Source of the DNA: Amphiura filiformis
Taxonomy: Eukaryota; Echinodermata; Ophiuroidea; Amphilepidida; Amphiuridae
DNA length: 64,000 nt
Reading direction: 5' to 3'
NCBI RefSeq assembly: GCF_039555335.1
Contig: NC_092640.1
Location: forward strand, 38,980,295-39,044,294
Shown: piece by piece, positions 7,532-62,700 of the stretch
How positions within the stretch are numbered: the first letter of the stretch is position 1
Layout of the letters: each line of letters starts with the position of its first letter
Position numbers and translations under genes: made by a program
The notes under the pieces: generated by a model
What the model saw: only the letters and a program-made list of their open reading frames with translations
What the model was told of the DNA's origin: nothing
The model's database searches: none

Positions 7532-8126
7532 AAGGTAACTAGACCCTCCCTCGGGTCCGTGGAGAACGACTGGTAATGTAGATTACATAGCATTAAAAAT
7601 ATTGTTGCCTTGCGCATACCATGTCCCCAGACCGCGTACGCGTGCCAGATGAGCTCAATACCGTTCAGTTGTTTACAAGTGTCCCAAACTCGATCTCCAG
7701 CGCAGCGCATCACATCATTTGAATTGAAACTGGGGCGGGGCTATCATATAATTGACACCAGAATCACGGGCTTAGTTGAACGATTTTTTGGAAGTGAAAT
7801 CTCTAACACTTCGGAACAGTCTCGGCGTGGGGAGCGGTCACTGAAATTTAGCGTTCAATATAGGAGGTGTGATTAGTGTAGTGGCATCAATTTGTGTAGA
7901 AAGAGGAATTGGTTTTGGGCGCTGTGAATTGGTTTTGGGCGCTGTGTATTTAGAATCGGGGTGGGTGAAGGACTATGGCATATTTTTATAGGCTATTATG
8001 TAGGCCTATCGTTCCATTATCCAGGCCGGACCGAACCGAGACTGTGGGACAGTCTACAAGGTAACTAGACCCTCCCTCGGGTCCGTGGAGAACGACTGGT
8101 AATGTAGATTACATAGCATTAAAAAT
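7532..8126 (+). repeat. 457-bp repeat body flanked by identical 69-bp direct repeats
   Basis: The 69-bp segment at 7532-7600 (AAGGTAACTAGACCCTCCCT at its start) is repeated at 8058-8126. Between them is a body (7601-8057) nearly identical to 13443-13903. Direct repeats around a conserved body could mean a miniature LTR-like element or part of a longer tandem array. The repeats do not start TG or end CA, and no target duplication is visible. The 88-codon frame inside is identical in both copies only because the DNA is. Confidence 0.75.
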
Positions 8127-13440: not shown

Positions 13441-13442
13441 AA

Positions 13443-13911
13443 TATTGTTGCCTTGCGCATACCATGTCCCCAGACCGCGTACGCGTGCCAGATGAGCTCA
13501 ATACCGTTCAGTTGTTTACAAGTGTCCCAAACTCGATCTCCAGCGCAGCGCATCACATCATTTGAATTGAAACTGGGGCGGGGCTATCATATAATTGACA
13601 CCAGAATCACGGGCTTAGTTGAACGATTTTTTGGAAGTGAAATCTCTAACACTTCGGAACAGTCTCGGCGTGGGGAGCGGTCACTGAAATTTAGCGTTCA
13701 ATATAGGAGGTGTGATTAGTGTAGTGGCATCAATTTGTGTAGAAAGAGGAATTGGTTTTGGGCGCTGTGAATTGGTTTTGGGCGCTGTGTATTTAGAATC
13801 GGGGGGGGGGGTGAAGGACTATGGCATATTTTTATAGGCTATTATGTAGGCCTATCGTTCCATTATCCAGGCCGGACCGAACCGAGACTGTGGGACAGTC
13901 TACAAGGTAAC
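13443..13911 (+). repeat. Second copy of the 457-bp repeat body
   Basis: Nearly identical to 7601-8057; the main difference is a longer G run at about 13800-13811. It is followed by only the first 8 bases (AAGGTAAC) of the 69-bp flank seen on both sides of the first copy. Confidence 0.8.
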
Positions 13912-14218
13912 AAACCAGCTGACCTAAGATTATGGCTAACTTATCTTTTTTTAAATGTTTTTGCAAGCGGAGCAATCTGAGACCATTTAGATTAAAATCA
14001 GAGAATTTGCCAATTTTATACCCTGTGGAATCACCAGATTTTGACATTTGACCTTTCCCCTATAACTCAAGTACTGTACATCAAGGACAGAACAAACTAT
14101 ATTTTTTCTGAACCCTTTTGTGTGAGCTTTTGGGAGATGGATGCATGTGAAATGAATTCTGTTGCAATTAGTGGTGGGAGATTGCATATTTTGACTGGCC
14201 ATAATGTATAGCGATGTA

Positions 14219-14404
14219 ATGCGACTGGGTTGCATGATTAGCCAAAGGACGACCCGCAGGTCTTGATGCGACTGGGTTGCATGATTAGCCAAAGGACGAC
14301 CGCAGGTCTTAATGCGACTGGGTTGCATGATTAGCCAAAGGACGACCCGCAGGTCTTAATGCGACTGGGTTGCATAATTAGCCTAAGGACGACCCGCAGG
14401 TCTT
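14219..14404 (+). repeat. 47-bp tandem repeat, four units
   Basis: The unit starts ATGCGACTGGGTTGCATGAT and ends CCGCAGGTCTT, repeated four times with single-base differences. It lies just beyond the inferred 3' end of SRSF7-like copy A. The end of the unit resembles the single CACAGGTCTTATG sequence at the matching place downstream of copy B (about 33015), so it probably expanded locally. Confidence 0.85.
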
Positions 14405-14475
14405 GGGTCCTAAATCCACAAATACTCAATTGAAGAACTTGCACAACCAATAAAAGTTCCTTGAGCGCTCTAGCT

Positions 14476-18277: not shown

Positions 18278-18343
18278 CTGCGACTTCTGGTGTAGCGACG
18301 GTTGCGTCTCGGTGAGTTGGAGCGAGAACGGGACCTAGAACGG
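18278..18343 (-). CDS. Copy A RS-domain exon
   Basis: 66 bp between the acceptor CTTTGTAG and the donor CAG|GTTAGT. In the ancestral frame it encodes alternating Arg-Ser followed by NSPRRNRRYTRSR. It is 6 bp shorter than the copy B exon. Because exon 2 of copy A is frameshifted, this exon would be read in another frame and would lose its RS character. Confidence 0.75.
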
Positions 18344-20796: not shown

Positions 20797-21110
20797 CTTC
20801 TTCTGCTGCTGCTGTAACTGCTGCTGTATCTACCACCACCACCACCACCACCATTCCTTGAACCCTCTCCATCACCCGGTCCGCGTCCATGTTTACAGCC
20901 ACGTGCAAAGTGTCCACGCTCTCCGCATGCGTAGCAACTCTCGTTCGTCTGTCACGCAGGGGCCTCGGCCGTATCCGCCGCCACCACCACCATAGCCACC
21001 CCCTCCCTAGCCGCCACCACCACCGTAGCCGCCGCCACCACCACGGCCGCCACCCCTTCGTCAGTCCACTGGCAATTTCAACTTTGACCTCTTTGCCACC
21101 GCAGAGACGT
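20797..21110 (-). CDS. Copy A exon 2: end of RRM, Gly linker, zinc knuckle; broken frame
   Basis: The acceptor TTCCTACAG and donor AAG|GTACAG match copy B (20797-21110 is 314 bp; copy B has 288). The first 16 residues after the junction ([15 protein letters not shown] region) are normal. Compared with copy B there is an extra base at about 21063, a TAG in the ancestral frame near 21008, and single bases missing near 20960 and 20945. The CX2CX4HX4C knuckle ([15 protein letters not shown]) is still encoded around 20900-20940, but in a frame not joined to the RRM. Confidence 0.65.
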
Positions 21111-21464: not shown

Positions 21465-21694
21465 GTTCCATCCAGTTCTTTGACTGCATCTTTAGCATCT
21501 CTGGAGTCTTCAAATTCGATGAAAGCAAAACCTGGTGGATTCCTTGCTACCCAGACGCTCCTCAGACGACCATAGTGATTGAAGGCATCTTCAAGTTCTT
21601 CTTTCCTTGCATTTTCTGGGAGATCTCCTACGTACACCTTGCAGTCTCTGTCATAACCTCCTCCTCCTCCTCTACTACTAGACGAATAAGACAT
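21465..21694 (-). CDS. Copy A exon 1: RRM N-terminal part
   Basis: It starts at the ATG in CAAGATGTC and encodes [18 protein letters not shown] followed by RNP2 VYVGDL and RNP1 GFAFIEFE, ending LDG-T at the donor AAC|GTAAGT. The RRM is intact and very close to copy B; the Ser/Gly insert near the N-terminus is specific to this copy. A likely 5' UTR acceptor (AATTCTAG) lies at 21737, so the exon probably starts there and a non-coding first exon lies upstream. Confidence 0.85.
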
Positions 21695-28854: not shown

Positions 28855-30940
28855 CATTTATACTCACATCCTCCTACATACTGAAGATAACATTATACCT
28901 ACCTTGCTATCTACTGAAGATAGCTTTATACAAACCTTGATATCTACTGAAGATAGCTTGATACGCACACCTTATCTACTGAAGATAACTTTATACCCAC
29001 ACCTTGCTATCGTCTGAAGATAGCTTTATACCCCCACTTTAATTGCTATCTATACCAGGTCTACCGAAAATAGCTTTATACCAACACCTTGCTATCTACC
29101 GAGGATAGCTTTATGCTCACCTTGATATCTACTGAAGATAACTTTATACGCACACCTTGCTATCTACCGAAGATAGCTTTATACGCACACCTTTAATTGC
29201 TATCTACCGAATATAGCTTTATACGCACACCTTTAATTGCTATCTACCGAATATAGCTTTATACCAACACTTTGCTATCTACTGAAGATAGTTTTATGCT
29301 CACCTTGATATCTACTGAAGATAGCTTTATACGCACACCTTACAATATCTACTGAATATAACTTTATACCCCGACACCTTGCTATCTACTGACTGAAGAT
29401 AGCTTTATACCCTCAATTTAATTGCTATCTACTGATGGTAGCGTTATACCCACACCTTGCTATCAACTGAAGATAGCTTTATATTTAACTTGATATCTAC
29501 TGAAGATAACTTTATACCCACACCTTGATATCTACTGAAGATAGCTTTATACTAACATGCTGCTGCTACATACTGAAGCTGACTTTATACGCACACCTTG
29601 CTATCTACTGAAGATAGTTTTACACTCACATCCTGCTACATACTGAAGATAACTTTATACCCACACCTTGCTATCTACTGAATGAAGATAGCTTTATACC
29701 CACACCTTACTTTATCTACTCAAGATAACTATATACCCACACTTTGCTATCTACTGAAGATAGCTTTATACTCGCATCCTGCTACATATATCGCTTTATA
29801 CCCACACCATGCGATATCTACTGAAGATTACTTTATCCCCACACCTTGCTATCTAGGCCTACTGAAGATAGCTTTATACCCTCAATTTAATTGCTATCCA
29901 CTGAAGATAGCTTTGTTCCCCCCTCTTGCTACTTCTAGAGATAGTTTTTCTCCCACTCCTTGCTGTCTACTGATAACTTTATACCCACACCTTGCTATCT
30001 ACTGAAGATAGCTTTACACCAACACCTTACTTTATCTACTCAAGATAATTATATACCCACACTTTGCTATCTACTGAAGATAGCTTTATACCATCGCTTT
30101 ATACCCACACCTTGCCTTGCGATATCTACTGAAGATTACCTTATAGTATACCCACGTATATCCTTGCTATCTACTGGAGATAGTTTTATATCCTCAATTT
30201 AATTGCTATCTACTGAAGATAGCTTTATACTCAAACATTGCTATCTATCGAAGATAGCTTTATACCCACACCTTAATTTTGCTATATCTACTGACGATAA
30301 CTTTGTACCCATGTACCTCAGTGCTATCTACTGAAGATAGCTATATACCCACACCTTAATTTTGATATATCTACTGAAGATAGATTTATACCCACACCTT
30401 GATATCTACTGAAGATAGCATTATACCCATACGATCTACTCATATATACACACCACTATATCTACTGAATATGCTAAAGATAGATAATCACACCTTGCTA
30501 TCTACTGAACATAGCTTTATATTTATACACTTTGCTATCTACTGAAGATAGCTTTATACCCACACCTTGCCATATCTACTGAAGATTACATTATACCCAC
30601 ACCCTGCTATCTACTGAAGATAGCTTTATACCCCACTTTAATTGTATCTACCGAAAATAGCTTTATACTCCCACCTTGTTATCTACTGAAGAGAGATTTA
30701 TAAGCTTTACTCACATCCTGCTACATATATCGCTTTATACCCACACCTTGCTATATCTACTGAAGATAACCTTATCCCCACACCTTGCTATCTACTGAAG
30801 ATAACCTTATCCCCACACCTTGCTATATCTACTGAAGATAACCTTATCCCCACACCTTGCTATAGCTTTATACCCTCAATTTAATTACTATCTAGCTACC
30901 GAAGATAGCTTTATACTCACACCTTGCTATCTACTGAAGA
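28855..30940 (+). repeat. 2.1-kb minisatellite of 35-bp hairpin units
   Basis: About 50 degenerate units of consensus CTATCTACTGAAGATAG plus CTTTATACCCACACCTTG. In most units the first part can form a six-base-pair hairpin (CTATCT, loop ACTGA, AGATAG). Some units carry loop variants (ACCGA) or stem mismatches, and a few longer units have TTTAATTG inserted. The Leu/Ile/Tyr-rich frames reading through are products of the repeat and not genes. Confidence 0.9.
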
Positions 30941-35235: not shown

Positions 35236-35390
35236 AAGCCCTGACAGAGCAGTTCTTCTGAGGTGAACCAAACCAGCCTGGTTATCAAATTAATCAGTGA
35301 TAAGTTTATCTCAGAGATAACCTTGTCACTGATTAATTTGATAACCAGGTAGGTTTGGTTCACCCCAGAAGAACTGCTTTGGCGGGGCTT
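35236..35390. mobile_element. Near-perfect palindromic MITE, 155 bp
   Basis: Arms of about 65 bp contain GAACCAAACC, GGTTATCAAATTAATCAGTG and GCAGTTCTTCTG and their mirrors, around a short TTATCTCAGAGATAA centre. It is found only in copy B. Confidence 0.8.
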
Positions 35391-36509: not shown

Positions 36510-39500
36510 CTGAAATGGAGAAAAATAAGAATAAATAATCAAGAGTTATTTTACATTACAGTACTAAATTCTTTTGTGCTACTTTGTTGATGTAGACATT
36601 ACCAGGGGAGGGCACTTAACACAAATGAACATACGGGTATGTTCCCCCGGAGAGACCCCCTTTTTGGATTTCGCAGCTCCGACAGACCCCCATATTTGGC
36701 CAAAATAGAGCTCCAAAAGACCATTGATTTTGATAATTTCAGCTCTAAAAGACCCCCAAATTGCTCATTCCTCATATATATTTATATGTTTTTTTTCCCA
36801 GGCAATTTTCAACTAGAAAGCCAAGAAAGGCCCTTGATTTTGACTGTTCGCAGCTCCATAAGTCCCCCTTTTACTGATCGTACCTCCAAAAGACACCCTT
36901 TTACCGGTACACCTTCAGCTCCCAAAGACCCACCCACCTCAAAATTCCAGGGGAACATACCCACCAAAATGAATGCGAAACAAAATACCTACCTTACACC
37001 ACCTCGCTTGCCATGTAATCCCTATGCCATTACTTTAATGTCGGCTTCATTCCATAGTGGCGCAAGGTCACCTCAAGCGTGGTGACACTAGGATCCACAA
37101 CATGCTGATCTATCAGGGCACAATTCTTTAACCCAATACATTTGTACATTTATTGAACGACCTTTGAAAATTTGGGTACAAAAACTCATACTCCGCAACT
37201 TGAGGTCAAATTTTTCACTATGATTGTTTAATTGAGGTTATTGAATTATGCCATTGGGATGAGGCCATTGCTGGCAATAAATATCAAACAGTCATAATTG
37301 GTGGTCATATCAAATCATCCCCAAGTCAAGAAGGTTCAAGAAAGTTCTCTCATTGTTAATTGTTGGTTATACATACCTATACAAAATACTATGCCTGGTA
37401 ACCCACCACTTGAACAGGATTTAGCCAAAGCAAACAAAGACCAGTGCTATTAAAAATTCTATTGCCATCTAAGGTAGAAGCTTATTATCCTCTTCAACAA
37501 TAGGATTATTGATTGGTGTTTGACTATCAAAATGAGATAGATGTCGTGCCAGCTAGAGATGCCGATGAATACGACCTGCATGCATATTTCACACTGTAAC
37601 TCAGAATACAATTTAGGGAATTTACGGCTCATTCGTGCTGTATGGTCACAAATTGTCCCATCAGTCCACTCGTTATTCTTCATCACATTCACATCACGTA
37701 AATATTTATTTTTAAAACAAAATTAATGATACCAACCTGCGACTTCTGCTCCGGCTGTCACGGTAGTTACGTCTTGGTGAGTTGGAGCGAGAACGGGACC
37801 TAGAACGGCTAGAAGGATGAGCAGAAAAAACAAAATCAAAACGCATTAATGTTAAAACCCGAAGTTGCACAAAAATATATCTGTAAAATTAAATGTCTGG
37901 TTACATGAACAAAGAAAATGGTTTTATTCGAGCTCAGAAAAAGATCAACCTATCAACTATTGTGTTGTTTTAATATCACATCCTTTCCATGACATAATAA
38001 AAAGTGCACTGATGGAGTTAAGACCGCGAAAACTTCCTTTTCTTTTTCTTCTCCTTTATAAAAACAATATCTCTCAATGCGTGCTTTGTATCTGACTCCC
38101 AATTGGAGTTAACTGATCAACCTACTCATGCACACAGATTTTACTGAATTGTTTTTGGAAACAGAAGTTTGGCTTTTTTTTCTTCAAGGAAGCTAGCTAG
38201 TTTTTAAAAATCATTCTGGCAAAAATAACAATCTTTTTCTGTCACTGTCACACACTTACCCTGCTACATGTACATTTCTCTGTTAAAATACGAAACATGT
38301 GAACTCTTAAACCGGCATGTGCTTTGATAGACGGACGGTACGGGGCAATCCCACCATCAATGAATGATGAACCGTAAATTCGCCGATAAGCAAACGCCAA
38401 GAAAAATATCTGAAAGCCTTGCGCTCTCATCACCGAAGGGCCGATGATCGAAAACCAGCTTTGTAAAATGTGCGGATGGTGACTTTAGAAGCTTTTGTGA
38501 GAAATTTGGTTTGGAAAGAGAGAGACGGACACTTGACGCTAGCTCCTCATAGGGCGGAAGAAACTATAGCTATGCACACCCTGAAGCCGCAGCTCTTGTG
38601 ATCACATGCTTAACTTATGCTGATCACATGCTAGACATGTGACGCTATAATAGCACATGCTGACTGACTGATATGATATTGTAGGGAGAAGACCCGAGGA
38701 ACATAACCGCAGACTTATCCAAAATCAAAGACCCTGAAAATTAGGAATAAAAACATTATTGTGGTAATTGGGAGTTGTAAAAACACTTTAATCAAAGGCC
38801 TTTTAAAAACCTATTTTGCACTAATGTGCTAAAACACACAAGATCTGGATGTTGGCACAACTCCCCTATAAATCAAAGCAAAAATCTTGGAATGAACAAC
38901 TTCTGAACTTTATCCCACCGTCTTAAGATGCACTCCAGTGTACTCCACAAGGGTCAATACAGACGGAAAACGGAACCCTACTGAGAAACTTTGTCTGAAA
39001 ATCTTTTTTTGAAGTTTTTATATATGCATCAAGCTCCTGCGGTCTTGTTTTAACAAAGAAGTCACTTTATTTTGAGTTGAAGAATAATTGAATGACAAGC
39101 CTATGTTCGAGTTCGGCATCTAAAAGCCCTGCCACTTTGTCATCAAAAGACCCATCACATTTCAGCAGGAATTCAGAAGGGATCATAAAAAAAAATCACA
39201 TTTCTCCAAAATACTTTTGTGCAGTGCATGATTAGAGGATGGGATATGGTTCGAAATCCATTGAATTACAGTCCAACCTCTTTTTTACCTGGCAATGATT
39301 TGACCATGCATTGGCAATGATTTGACCATGCATTGGCCATGATGGGACCACGCATTGGCCATTATGGGACATGAAATTAAGGTGTCAAAGCATTAAGAAC
39401 AAGTACCGGGTAACGATCAAACAGCCTGATAACAAAAAGATCCGTACAGAGAGGTCGGGATGAGAGAGGTTGGACTGTAGTGCAATATTTGCTTGACAGT

Positions 39501-40536
39501 GCAAGTGAATATTCAAGCAATAAAAAAACAATTGAATCAATTGTTGATGAATTTATAAAATTTCAAAAGATAAAGTCTAAAAATGTTCCTGCCAAACACG
39601 AACCTCGTGCAACCCTAAATGCTGGTAAGTTTATGTAAGTACTGTAAGTTTGTACAATATGTACTTTTGTCAGTTCAAATTAAAAGCAAGAGCACATATT
39701 AAGCTTAAATACCTTCTTCTACTGTTGTATCTGCCACCGCCACCGCTACCACCCCTCTGGCCTTCTCCATCACCAGGTCTGCGTCCGTGTTTACAGTCAC
39801 GGGCAAAGTGTCCACGTTCGCCACATGCGTAGCAACTCTCATTGCGTCTGTCGCGTGGTGGACCCCTGCCGTATCCACCACCTCCACCACCGTAGCCGCC
39901 ACCACCACCACCACCATAGCCGCCGCCACCACCACCACCACCACCTCTGCGTCGTCCACTGGCAATTTCGACTTTGACCTCTCTGCCGCCACAAAGACGT
40001 CTGTAGGATTGCGGAAACAAAACAAAATTGAATAATGATATAACTTAGACCTACTCTATAAATTGATAATCATATACTACATCTTGTGTACTGTGTAGCT
40101 CATGAATGCTATTTTTTTTTTTTTGAAAAGTTGAATGCGTAAAAATAAATTTTCCAACATCACCCGCTTGCATTTTGTATGTTGATTATGGTTTCTGAAT
40201 TTGACATCCACATTAACTCAAATATGTCCACAAGCTACCAGATGCAGATTTGTCAGCTAGGTCTGAACAACTGAGACTACAATGTAAATTTTACATGCAC
40301 TGAACCTTGAATGAACAATGAAAATGTACTTACGTTCCGTCAAGCTCTCTGACTGCGTCTTTAGCGTCTCTGGAGTCTTCAAACTCGATGAAAGCAAAAC
40401 CTGGTGGATTCCTTGCTACCCACACGCTCTTCAAGTCACCATAGCGATTGAAGGCATCTTCAAGTTCTTCTTTTCTTGCGTTGTTGGGGAGATCTCCTAC
40501 GTACACCTTGCAGTCTCTGTCGTAGCCTCTAGACAT
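36491..40536 (-). CDS. SRSF7-like: SRSF7-like SR splicing factor, copy B
   Basis: Joined exons 40536-40334, 40000-39713, 37808-37737 and 36509-36491 encode 193 residues. The RRM is at about 11-83, with RNP2 VYVGDL (11-16) and RNP1 GFAFIEFE (46-53). A glycine/tyrosine-rich linker follows (84-114), then a CCHC knuckle (C124, C127, H132, C137), a second Gly-rich stretch, and a short RS tail (164-188) ending SPSPKN. RRM plus one zinc knuckle plus RS is the SRSF7 (9G8) plan; vertebrate SRSF7 is longer, with a longer RS domain. The family binds pre-mRNA and promotes splice-site choice and mRNA export. All junctions are GT-AG with consistent phases. The start is the ATG in CCAAGATGTC shared with copy A; an upstream in-frame ATG at 40608 lies beyond a likely 5' UTR splice acceptor at 40572. 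A poison exon lies in intron 2. Confidence 0.92.
36605..36965. repeat. Inverted repeat with GACCCCC motifs in the last intron of copy B
   Basis: CGGGTATGTTCCCCCGG near 36633 pairs with CAGGGGAACATACCCACC near 36950. Between them, CAGCTCCGA/AAAGACCCCC motifs recur every 40-60 bp. A 148-codon frame runs through it and beyond, but it has repeat composition and no domain. Confidence 0.6.
37737..37808 (-). CDS. Copy B exon 3: RS domain
   Basis: 72 bp between the acceptor CCTTCTAG and the donor CAG|GTTGGT. It encodes [20 protein letters not shown] plus RSR. The last seven Arg/Ser residues differ from copy A, which has RRYTRSR. Confidence 0.9.
38260..38733 (-). promoter_or_regulatory. Poison cassette exon of copy B
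   Basis: 474 bp bounded by the acceptor CCTAATTTTCAG|GGTCTTTG and the donor AGCAGG|GTAAGTGTG, in the intron between the zinc-knuckle and RS exons. Splicing from exon 2 (ending AG) gives AGG, five more codons and then TAA, so inclusion would end the protein before the RS tail and leave two exon junctions downstream. That layout triggers nonsense-mediated decay in known SR genes. The 5' 110 bp of the exon and about 60 bp of upstream intron are almost identical to copy A. Confidence 0.85.
39713..40000 (-). CDS. Copy B exon 2: end of RRM, Gly linker, CCHC knuckle
   Basis: 288 bp between TCCTACAG and AAG|GTATTT. It encodes [18 protein letters not shown], then runs of 9, 7 and 6 glycines separated by tyrosine, [12 protein letters not shown], the knuckle [14 protein letters not shown] and a [14 protein letters not shown] stretch. 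The opposite and alternative frames are also open over about 100 codons because of the GGN repeats. They are shadows. Confidence 0.92.
40334..40536 (-). CDS. Copy B exon 1: RRM N-terminal part
   Basis: It encodes [17 protein letters not shown], helix 1 ([14 protein letters not shown]) and beta strands through [20 protein letters not shown], ending DG-T at the donor AAC|GTAAGT. It differs from copy A at few positions apart from the N-terminal insert there. Confidence 0.92.
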
Positions 40537-49789: not shown

Positions 49790-51240
49790 AGTAACTACAG
49801 AATACCCCTCTCGGGGGTATAGTTGTATAAAGTTGTAACATGTTTGTATGTATTGGAATAGGGTGTTTTGTGCTTGAGTGGGGTATTCTGTTTTAATGAT
49901 TTGTGTATGGTAATGTTCTGAGTATGGTATTCTGGAAACTAAGTATAGGTCTTGGTTTTTTTGTTGGCGCAGTCGGCGCAGACATAGTCGAAAAACCGAC
50001 ATGGTTGGCGTTTGAAGTGGGCGCAGTTTAAATTGGCGGGTTAATTGGCGGGTTATTTAAGTCGCAGTTGAAAAAAATGAAGTCTGTTTGTTTGTTTGTA
50101 ATTTATAGTGTGTTTTTTGCTAGTTGACTACTCGGGAGTGTAATTGCCCGGTATAGGTGTCGGTTTTTAACAAGGCGCAGTCGGCGCAGACGTAGTCGAA
50201 AAATTGACATGTTTGTTCTTTGGGGCGTGGTCGCAGTAGCCTATTGCATGGGAATTAGGTGTTTTGTGCGTGAGTGGTTGATTGTGTTGTAATGAGTTGT
50301 GTATGATAATGTTGTGAGTGTGGTATTCTGGAGACTAAGTATAGGTCTTGGTTTTTTTGTGGGCGCAGTCGGCGCAGACGTTGTTGAAAATTGACAGGTT
50401 TTTTCTTTAAGCGTGGACATAGTTGAAAGTGAGGATTTTTTAAATTGGGCGTGGACGTAGATTAGCGGGGATTTGTCCCCGTTACCGTTGAAGGAGTACA
50501 AGATGTGGTACGTTTGTGTATGGTAGTAGGCCTATGTGAATTATATTTGGTACTACACGTATACCTGGACAAATTCTATGTCTAGTTTTTATGTCGGCGT
50601 AGTCGGCGCAGACGTAGTTGCAAATTAACAGGTTTTGGGCTTTGAGCTTGGACGTGGATAAAATTGGTGATTTCATGAATGGAACATAGTGTTAGGGGGA
50701 TTTGTTTCCCTTTACGTTAAATTAGTTTAACGACTATAATATGTTAGTTTTTGTTTGATTGTGTGTAAATGTGGGCAGTACATGTACAGTTGGACATAGT
50801 TCTTGATTTTTATGTCGGCGCAGTCGGCGCAGCCGTAGTTGTAAGTGGCAGATTTAGCATTTGGTCGTGGACGTGGTTAAAAGTGGCGATTTTATAAATG
50901 GGGCGTGGATGCAGTATTGCGAGGGAATTTGTCCGCAATGGCGTTGAAGGAGTAGGCCATCAATATGTTGTTTTGTGTTTGATAGTGTTTGAATTTGTTG
51001 TTGGTACATGTAAGTTGGACAACGTATAGATCCTGGTTTTATGGCGGCGTAGTCGGCGCAGACGTAGTTAAAATTGGCAAGTTTGTGCTTTGGGCGTGGT
51101 CGTAGTTAAAATGTGATTTTATATATGGGAATGGTCGATTTGTTCCCGATGAAGCTGATTGGTATGCTATGTTGTTTGGATATAGGTCGGGGTTTTTATG
51201 TCGGCGCAGACGTTGTTCAAATGGTGGCACGTTCTGGGTT
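49790..51240 (+). repeat. ~220-bp satellite with GGCGCAGTCGGCGCAGAC core
   Basis: The core recurs at about 49967, 50172, 50363, 50594, 50815, 51044 and (shortened) 51200, spaced 155-230 bp apart. Each core follows a TAGGTCTTGGTTTTT-like stretch and precedes CGTAGTTGAAAATTGACA-like sequence and a GGGCGTGGACGTAG segment. The reverse-strand frames are repeat-derived. Confidence 0.8.
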
Positions 51241-59747: not shown

Positions 59748-62700
59748 ATACCCTACCACATTTGGCCGTCGCCGAAGCTACCCTAGTTTTAGCCCTGCTA
59801 CACCGACGGCGCGAAACTCGATGATAGGATTACATTGAATGATGTATGGATTAACTTAGTGCAATAAATAAATCACTTAATTCAGCAAATTAAATAAACG
59901 AACGAGAGAGATTCAAAACAACATTGTAGTAATTTAATTAATAATGCCACTATATAATGAAGAAGAGGAACATTAGGAAATTTTTAATTTAATTAATATA
60001 CATAATTATTTCTTTGCTTCCCATAATCAGCCAGGAATCATAAATCTGCATAATGATCAGTTTCCATTCATTAATTACCTTATTTAAAGAAGAGATAAAA
60101 AAATTATTAATTAACTTAAGAACATTAAATAAAAACATTAACTTTTAACAATAGTCAGTCATTAATTATAATATGTAAATTGATGCACACCAGGAAGGTT
60201 ACCGTTGTTGCAGGGCTACAGCGACTTCGCCGTTTGATAATTAATCAATTAATTAACGTTCTTAAACAATTAACTTTTATCAATATTCAGTCATTAATGT
60301 TATGCCCATGAGGAAGGGTATCGTTGTTGCAGGGCTACAGCGACATCGCCGTTTGATAATTAATGAATGAATGAATTAATTAACAAACAAACAAACAAAC
60401 TTTATAAATATTCACCCATTAATGCGATGGCTATGAGGAAGGTTATCGTTGTTGCAGGGCTACAGCGACATCGCCGTGTGAACTTTGAACAATTTCTCAA
60501 CAACCCTGCTACCGATTTCCATGATTTTTGTACCAATTTTCTTCTTTTTAAAAGACCTTGCTAAGTATAAATGATAAAAATTATCATGATTATACGTCGT
60601 TCATAAACGCCCCTACCACTCACAAGCTTTACTTTACATTGACCGCGTTCTGACGTTCAATACAAATCTGAATAAAGATGGAAGATAATTAATAGTTCTG
60701 TTTCATTCAGAATGTTTTGTTGAACTTGTAAAAGAAATGTCTTATGATGCTTATTTTTTCACCTATTAGTCGGAACTGTATGAGCGATGAATGACAATTT
60801 TCTTCTTAATTAACTTTTCAGTGGTCACGGTCCTGTTTTTATTTATAACAACTGCAAAGTATGAAATCACATAAACCAGTGTATACGTCGTTCATAAAAG
60901 GCCCCAACCAGTGATACCCAGGTGCAAAAGCTCTGTTTCTTCTTAATTAATTTTTCAGTGGTCACGGTCCTGTTTTTATTTATAAATCACATAAACCAGT
61001 GTAGGCCTATACGTCGTTCATAAAATGCCCCAACCAGTGACAACCAGGTGCAAACTAAGTTCTGTGCATTATGCGCTTACCAATCAACTTAACTTGCTCT
61101 TGTCAACAAACAAGCAACTCCCCATTTCACATGTACATCATAATGTATATCGCCCAAGCATCATCATCTACAATCCAACGATCACTTGTATCAATATGCA
61201 AATATATGATTCAATACGTGCATGTTGATTAATAGGGATTAGTTTTTCAACAGCTTTATAGTCGGCATGGGCGGGTGAAGCGTAAACAAACATGTGTTGG
61301 TTAATCCTAAAACCAAGCAGGTCATTAATTTTTATTCTTTAAGTAATCGAATAATAAAAAAAATCATTCGCGGCGTCGCTGTAGCACGGCAACAGCGTTA
61401 CCTTCACCCAATGGCAAGGTATAGGTTAGCGGCGTCACTATAGCACGGTAACAGCGATACCTTCCTCCTCTTCATTACATTTATTTGCTAACATGATCAA
61501 GTCATTACAAAATACGCAAAAAGTCTAGCTTTGCGCCGTCGCTGTAGCACAGCAACAACGATAGCTTCGCGCCGTCGGTGTAGTCCAGTAAAAAGGGCTA
61601 GCTTCGCGCCGTCGCTGTAGCACGGCAACAGCGATACCTTCGCGCCCTCAATTTAGCCCCTCAAAAGGTATAGCTTCGCGCCGTCGCTGTAGCACGGCAA
61701 CAGCGATACCTTCCTCCCTACATTAATTTGGTGACATGACCAAAATAAGGTATACCTCAGTGCCGTCGGTGTTACCATACGGAAATAGGTATACTTTCGC
61801 GCCGTCGGTTTAGCCCCTCAAAAAAGTCTAGCTTCGCGCCGTCGCTGTAGCACGGCAACAACGACACCTTCGCGCCGTCGGTGTAGCCCATTAAAAAGGT
61901 ATAGCTTCGCGCCGTCGCTGTAGCACAGCAACAACGATACCTTCCCGCCGTCGGTGTAGCCCTGTAAAAAGGTATAGCTTCGCGCCGTCGCTGTAGCACG
62001 GCAACAGCGATACCTTCGCACCGTCGGTGTCATGGTCGGTGTAGCCCCGTAAAAGGTATAGCTTCGCGCCGTCGCTGTAGCACGGCAACAACGATACCTT
62101 CCGCTACCACACTCATTTGCTAATATGGCAACTTTAACAATTAGGCCTACATAAGGTGCACCTTTGCACCGTCGGTGTGGCCTTACGGAAATAGGTCTAC
62201 CTTACCGCCGTCGGTGTAGGCCCCTCATAAAAGGTCTAGCTTCGCGCCGTCGCTGTAGCACAGCAACAGCGATACCTTTGCGGCGTCGCTGTAGCACAGC
62301 AACAACGATACCTTCATTCACCATCACAATATATGATACGTATTTACTCCATGAAATAAATGCCACTCATTAACAATTAACATTCCTCTTATCAATATAA
62401 CTTTAATCACTATTAACAATCATTGTTACACCCTCTTATCCCTCACACTCATTATTATTATGTCATAATTATTAATTAATTACCATCGCCCTCTAACCCA
62501 TCATAATAATTAGAATTATATAATCATTCATAACCAATTACAATCGGCCTCTTATACGTCACACTAATTAAAATTATATCATGCTTATTAGCATCATCTT
62601 TTGATGCGATCAATCATTATTACTTGAGTACATTAAAATCTATTACGCATAATTAATGTCATTATATAATGCAATATAGTTATTTCATTATGCTTAAATT

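Follow-up and report, generated by a model that had tools for sequence, protein, structure and literature searches.

SRSF3/SRSF7-type genes of the window

The 64-kb stretch of Amphiura filiformis DNA analysed here, referred to below as the window, harbours on its minus strand a gene of the SRSF3/SRSF7 family (gene B), one intron of which contains the block that is the main subject of this report. The translation of gene B with the block skipped is a protein of 193 aa, 100% identical over all 193 aa to an A. filiformis protein of the NCBI database (P0001) that is labelled "uncharacterized protein". The domain search detected an RRM (PF00076, 1.4e-18) and one CCHC knuckle (PF00098, 1.3e-06) in this protein, the translation ends in a C-terminal tail of RS repeats, and the nearest relatives in the PDB are SRSF3 and SRSF7. 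With RRM, CCHC knuckle and RS tail all present, the product of gene B belongs to the SRSF3/SRSF7 protein family. The features of the gene are as follows (a slash marks the exon/intron boundary):

40334..40536, minus strand: exon 1 (CDS start, RRM); translation identical to P0001; donor AAC/GTAAGT
39713..40000, minus strand: exon 2 (end of RRM, Gly-rich part, CCHC zinc knuckle); 3' end in phase 2 (AG/); donor AAG/GTATTT, 7 of 9 consensus positions
38734..38833, minus strand: intron sequence just upstream of the block, with 94% identity between the two genes; the final 56 bases form the intronic part of a 151-nt identical run
38260..38733, minus strand: predicted poison cassette exon, 474 nt, with splice sites, TAA at 38717-38715 and stops in three frames
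38101..38200, minus strand: island of conservation within the downstream intron (two 50-nt bins at 74% and 86% identity); contains TGCATG at 38132-38127, which gene A also has
37737..37808, minus strand: exon 3 (RS repeats), 72 nt; translation identical to P0001
36491..36509, minus strand: coding part of the last exon; normal stop TGA at 36493-36491

Several minor elements were observed around gene B. At the start of intron 1 (40333-40285) the similarity between the two genes extends past the donor site, as part of a 245-nt pair of 90% identity that reaches 40285. An inverted repeat at 35236-35390, with 77-nt arms that are 90% complementary and separated by a 1-nt spacer, lies about 1.1 kb downstream of the coding end, possibly within the 3' UTR of gene B. 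Upstream of the gene, on the minus strand at about 42020-41940, a tRNA-like sequence with a B-box (GGTTCGAACC) is probably a tRNA-derived SINE; ARAGORN called no tRNA genes in the 64-kb window.

A second SRSF7-like gene (gene A) is located in the same window, in tandem and in the same orientation, approximately 19 kb from gene B:

21465..21694, minus strand: gene A exon 1, compared with gene B
20797..21110, minus strand: gene A exon 2; differs from gene B by three single-base indels and a TAG; read as P0007
18814..19302, minus strand: gene A copy of the predicted poison exon, 489 nt, in the same intron, its splice sites and stop matching those of gene B
18278..18343, minus strand: gene A exon 3 (RS repeats), compared with gene B
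17100 onward, minus strand: further exon of gene A

Relative to gene B, one base is inserted and two single bases are missing in exon 2 of gene A, a TAG is present in the old frame, and the NCBI protein P0007 (231 aa) is a frame-shifted reading of this gene. Gene A may be a recent pseudogene, encode an RRM-only protein, or reflect an assembly error. The dN/dS ratio between the two genes is about 0.14 over the alignable codons, suggesting that the loss of gene A, if real, is recent. Even in gene A as written, inclusion of the block would still stop translation, at the 29th codon of the block, which is the first stop in that frame. Genes A and B came out as sisters (100/99) in a tree of 24 RRMs picked among the 120 listed proteins, in which the deeper echinoderm branching shows no resolution. 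In P0024, another predicted SRSF7-like protein of A. filiformis, no RS repeats follow the zinc knuckle, as would be expected of an out-of-frame reading.

Splice sites, frame and stop of the block

The first-pass annotation of this DNA had placed a 474-nt block with its own acceptor and donor between the zinc-knuckle and RS exons, with a TAA after six codons in the frame of exon 2, and each of these elements was recovered to the base. The acceptor (...TTCCTAATTTTCAG/G) sets the first base of the block at 38733 and the donor (...GCAGG/GTAAGTGTG) sets the last one at 38260; both match the quality of the other splice sites of gene B, and both are kept in the gene A copy. Scored against the nine-position donor consensus, the block donor AGG/GTAAGT agrees at 8 positions, and the exon 2 donors at 7 (AAG/GTATTT, gene B) and 6 (AAG/GTACAG, gene A). 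Splice-site-like sequence by itself is weak evidence, since an acceptor-like/GTAAGT pair occurred in 25% of 300 dinucleotide-shuffled introns. The real intron of gene B contains a single such pair, namely the block, and it is the presence of a copy in gene A that raises the block above chance expectation.

Inclusion from the phase 2 end of exon 2 would be read as AGG GTC TTT GAT TTT GGA TAA, ending translation after six codons and giving a predicted product of 169 aa for gene B. In both genes the block length (474 and 489 nt) is divisible by three, hence poisoning would be achieved by the stop, without a frame shift. Stops are found in every frame of the block, numbering 4, 8 and 7 in gene B and 6, 6 and 6 in gene A. 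According to the 50-nt rule, a stop that precedes a later exon junction by more than about 50 nt directs the mRNA to nonsense-mediated decay (NMD). The TAA of gene B is located 455 nt ahead of the junction at the end of the block and 527 nt ahead of the last junction, so that, judged by this rule, the inclusion mRNA is a predicted NMD substrate.

The position of the stop bears directly on the possibility that inclusion serves mainly to produce a truncated RRM/zinc-knuckle protein without the RS domain, or to control nuclear retention, rather than to bring about decay. A truncated product of human SRSF3 has been described for transcripts that escape decay, and a 169-aa counterpart is predicted for gene B, yet the distances of 455 and 527 nt speak for degradation of the message. 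In human SRSF7, a split-ORF arrangement exists, in which a second ORF with the RS domain opens inside the exon. There is no ATG past the last block stop in the RS frame of either gene A or gene B, hence an SRSF7-type split-ORF is impossible in the A. filiformis block. On balance, a principal role in making a truncated or retained product appears unlikely, and the poison exon reading is preferred.

Words of the inclusion tails of genes A and B were present in none of 124 proteins (the best 120 of 4208 together with 4 tail-search matches), and the search for a protein with the predicted truncated tail returned five records, P0001 and four others. NMD isoforms are rarely recorded as proteins, so the absence of an inclusion-tail protein is weak counter-evidence. 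No candidate was obtained in a conceptual-translation search with the 3' open frame of the block, and an exact-pattern scan of viral and prokaryote contigs with the acceptor/stop segment gave no match, as expected.

Conservation of the block between the two genes

The comparison of genes A and B, which involves two sequences, that is one gene pair of one genome, yielded 94.3% identity for the block (446 of 473 aligned positions, 27 differences). The corresponding values for the coding exons were 89.2% (181/203, exon 1), 84.6% (242/286, exon 2) and 87.9% (58/66, exon 3). Among the introns, identity amounted to 94% in the last 100 nt upstream of the block, 78.2% downstream of it (P=8e-13 for block versus downstream intron), 50.7% in the distal upstream part, 56.8% in intron 1 and 43.3% in intron 3. 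The last three are low overall with a few alignable islands; two of those in the upstream intron are found at 39257-39193/19965-19902 (65 columns, 86% identity) and at 39563-39494/20090-20015 (76 columns, 80% identity).

The block differs less than the exons and less than the synonymous sites of the same gene pair. Entered as 27 differences in 463 positions, it falls below both the fourfold sites (16 of 62 differing, P=5e-6) and exons 1 and 2 together (66/489, P=5e-5). Over 145 codons dS is 0.49 and dN 0.070, and the corrected divergence of the block (0.059) is thus about one eighth of dS. The tandem pair may be regarded as a natural experiment, in which the regulatory exon appears to be more tightly held than the protein it regulates.

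The conserved tract is sharply bounded. Along the intron, identity in 50-nt bins is 40% and 54% (39000-38901), 72% in the next bin, 88-100% from 38850 to 38251, and 72-74% thereafter. The longest identical run measures 151 nt (38789-38639) and spans the acceptor, comprising 56 intron and 95 exon bases, whereas the longest runs of the three coding exons that were compared measure 38, 20 and 33 nt. When the 40 change events within the block and the 100 nt upstream of it were reshuffled, a run of 151 nt was reached in 3 of 20,000 trials. Both genes agree in every base of the acceptor, of the first 95 nt of the exon and of the first 12 nt of intron past the donor, and the reading frame with its TAA is kept as well.

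Gene conversion is common between tandem copies of the same orientation, and genes A and B, located about 19 kb apart, are of this kind. It could therefore be argued that a recent conversion event made the two blocks alike and that the block itself is functionless; the 151-nt identical run would suit such an event, and a short tract confined to the block is compatible with two sequences from one genome. Against this stand the uneven identity (51% in the distal upstream intron, 94% in flank and block, 78% downstream), the edges of the tract, which lie some 100-130 nt ahead of the acceptor and directly past the donor, the flanking coding exons on either side, which have not been homogenised, and the retention of both splice sites and of the stop. 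Conversion of a functionless block is accordingly judged very unlikely. Conversion covering the whole intron, by which the first-pass annotation had supposed that its reading might fall, is ruled out by the same identity profile. What stood of that reading is an NMD-suited stop exon, strongly supported by the sequence and by paralogue conservation; the whole-intron alternative attached to it did not stand.

Constraint on non-coding sequence does not by itself specify a function, and the conserved tract takes in about 100 nt of the upstream intron. The block might hence be a conserved intronic element, such as a transcriptional enhancer or an intronic non-coding RNA, with only incidental splice sites. 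No Rfam family matched at the gathering score anywhere in the 64-kb window, and the folding energy of the block was no better than that of shuffled sequences (z -0.69 and -0.30). Moreover, the tract is edged by an acceptor and a donor that are identical in both copies and occupy the place of the SRSF3 poison exon, which makes an element unrelated to splicing highly improbable. Coding function of the block is ruled out by the stops in every frame and by the seven indel events between the genes (3, 4, 2, 1, 5, 1 and 1 nt), six of which are not multiples of three, so that the constraint on the block is not exerted on protein.

In a search for motifs of the SRSF3/SRSF7 type, no enrichment of GAC/GAY or CNNC-type motifs was detected in the block (CNNC, 28 versus 24.0 expected; GAC, 0 versus 2.3 expected in gene B). 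A scan of 11 motifs over 6 regions gave its smallest P values for GTGATC (0.007 in block A and 0.015 in block B, uncorrected, the motif having been picked after its repeats were noticed) and for GCATG (0.030 in block B and 0.158 in block A, likewise uncorrected). The TGCATG of the conserved downstream island may be taken as a lead towards RBFOX, one without statistical significance; RBFOX control is not claimed.

Poison exon reading and proposed mechanism

The block lies within an intron of a coding gene, is delimited by an acceptor and a donor, and shows strong non-coding conservation, as a cassette exon does. Taken together with the position of its stop, these properties are best explained by a predicted poison cassette exon that feeds NMD, and this is very probably what the block is.

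In the scheme that we propose, the block would be skipped by default, exon 2 being joined to exon 3 and the full SRSF3/7-type protein being produced. If the block were included, translation would end six codons into it, the mRNA would be committed to NMD and less protein would be made. We infer that inclusion does occur and that it would rise with the level of SR protein, either of the gene itself or of its sister, which would complete a negative feedback loop; that the gene's own product exerts such control is the part of this scheme that is purely inferential. The exon 2 donors, which are poorer than that of the block in both genes, may leave the choice between the two splicing patterns open to regulation.

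Relation to known poison exons

The closest counterpart of the block is exon 4 of mammalian SRSF3 (SRp20). In human and mouse, this exon has been described as 456 nt long, normally excluded and carrying a premature stop near its 5' end, and its inclusion is reported to be promoted by the SRSF3 protein. The A. filiformis block similarly belongs to an SRSF3/7-family gene, is placed between the RRM-side and RS-side exons, carries its stop near the 5' end, is of comparable length (474 nt in gene B, 489 nt in gene A) and shares the exceptional non-coding conservation described for SRSF3 exon 4. The intron phase may also agree: a published primer across the human SRSF3 exon 3/5 junction encodes SPPPRRRS, which would fit a phase 2 intron immediately ahead of the RS repeats, the exact boundary being deduced from the primer. 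Autoregulation has been demonstrated in mammals, whereas for A. filiformis it is a proposal. To our knowledge, human SRSF3 has no zinc knuckle, whereas the gene B protein has one.

When three fragments of human SRSF3 exon 4 (58 nt in total, taken from printed oligonucleotides, one of them assigned to exon 4 through its primer pair) were compared with the block, no significant similarity was detected over this short length, the best P being 0.09, uncorrected. The individual P values were 0.09, 0.995 and 0.30 for block B and 0.325, 0.745 and 0.36 for block A.

In its domain composition (RRM, zinc knuckle and RS tail) the gene B product resembles human SRSF7 (9G8). The human SRSF7 gene has two poison exons, 4a and 4b, whereas a single block is present in A. 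filiformis. Inclusion of 4a and 4b has been reported to increase upon depletion of UPF1/XRN1 and to decrease upon depletion of SRSF7 (P<0.02 for 4a, P<0.06 for 4b), and SRSF3 is described as crosslinking within the poison exons of both SRSF3 and SRSF7.

Negative feedback and cross-regulation have been reported for Drosophila Rbp1 and Rbp1-like (Kumar and Lopez, 2005), an invertebrate SRSF3-family pair under mutual control. According to Lareau and Brenner (2015), all human SR genes are affected by unproductive splicing and most of the events are of independent origin, but the poison exon of SRSF5 is ancient and can be aligned to sea urchin; in the text of their paper SRSF3 is named once, in a context other than invertebrates, and SRSF7 is never named. 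The SRSF5 exon of animals belongs to an SR gene different from the SRSF3/7-type host in A. filiformis. As for the Drosophila pair, its regulation reportedly involves an alternative splice-site event and not a long cassette exon.

The sharply bounded, ultraconserved-like exon of an echinoderm gene offers an outgroup for distinguishing between an ancient and a convergent origin of the SRSF3/7 exon. It is possible, if somewhat doubtful, that the block and the vertebrate SRSF3/SRSF7 poison exons descend from one ancestral exon. Such an exon would date back at least to the deuterostome ancestor, and would have outlived the duplication, nearly unchanged even in the copy whose zinc-knuckle exon is decaying.

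A literature search, the coverage of which left out most subscription papers, returned no publication combining "poison exon" and "echinoderm", which says little about novelty. Among the matches listed on poison exons or SR proteins and NMD in sea urchin and other invertebrates, the only ancient echinoderm SR poison exon was that of the SRSF5 work. The A. filiformis block is a poison-exon candidate in an echinoderm SRSF3/7 gene, strongly supported by the paralogue comparison.

Other features of the window

A 300-bp direct repeat (7598-7897 and 13441-13740), the two copies of which are 100% identical and 5.8 kb apart, is a recent insertion or duplication. In addition, minisatellite-like arrays with distinct units were observed at 14217-14441, 28875-30929, 49936-51069 and 61357-62319.
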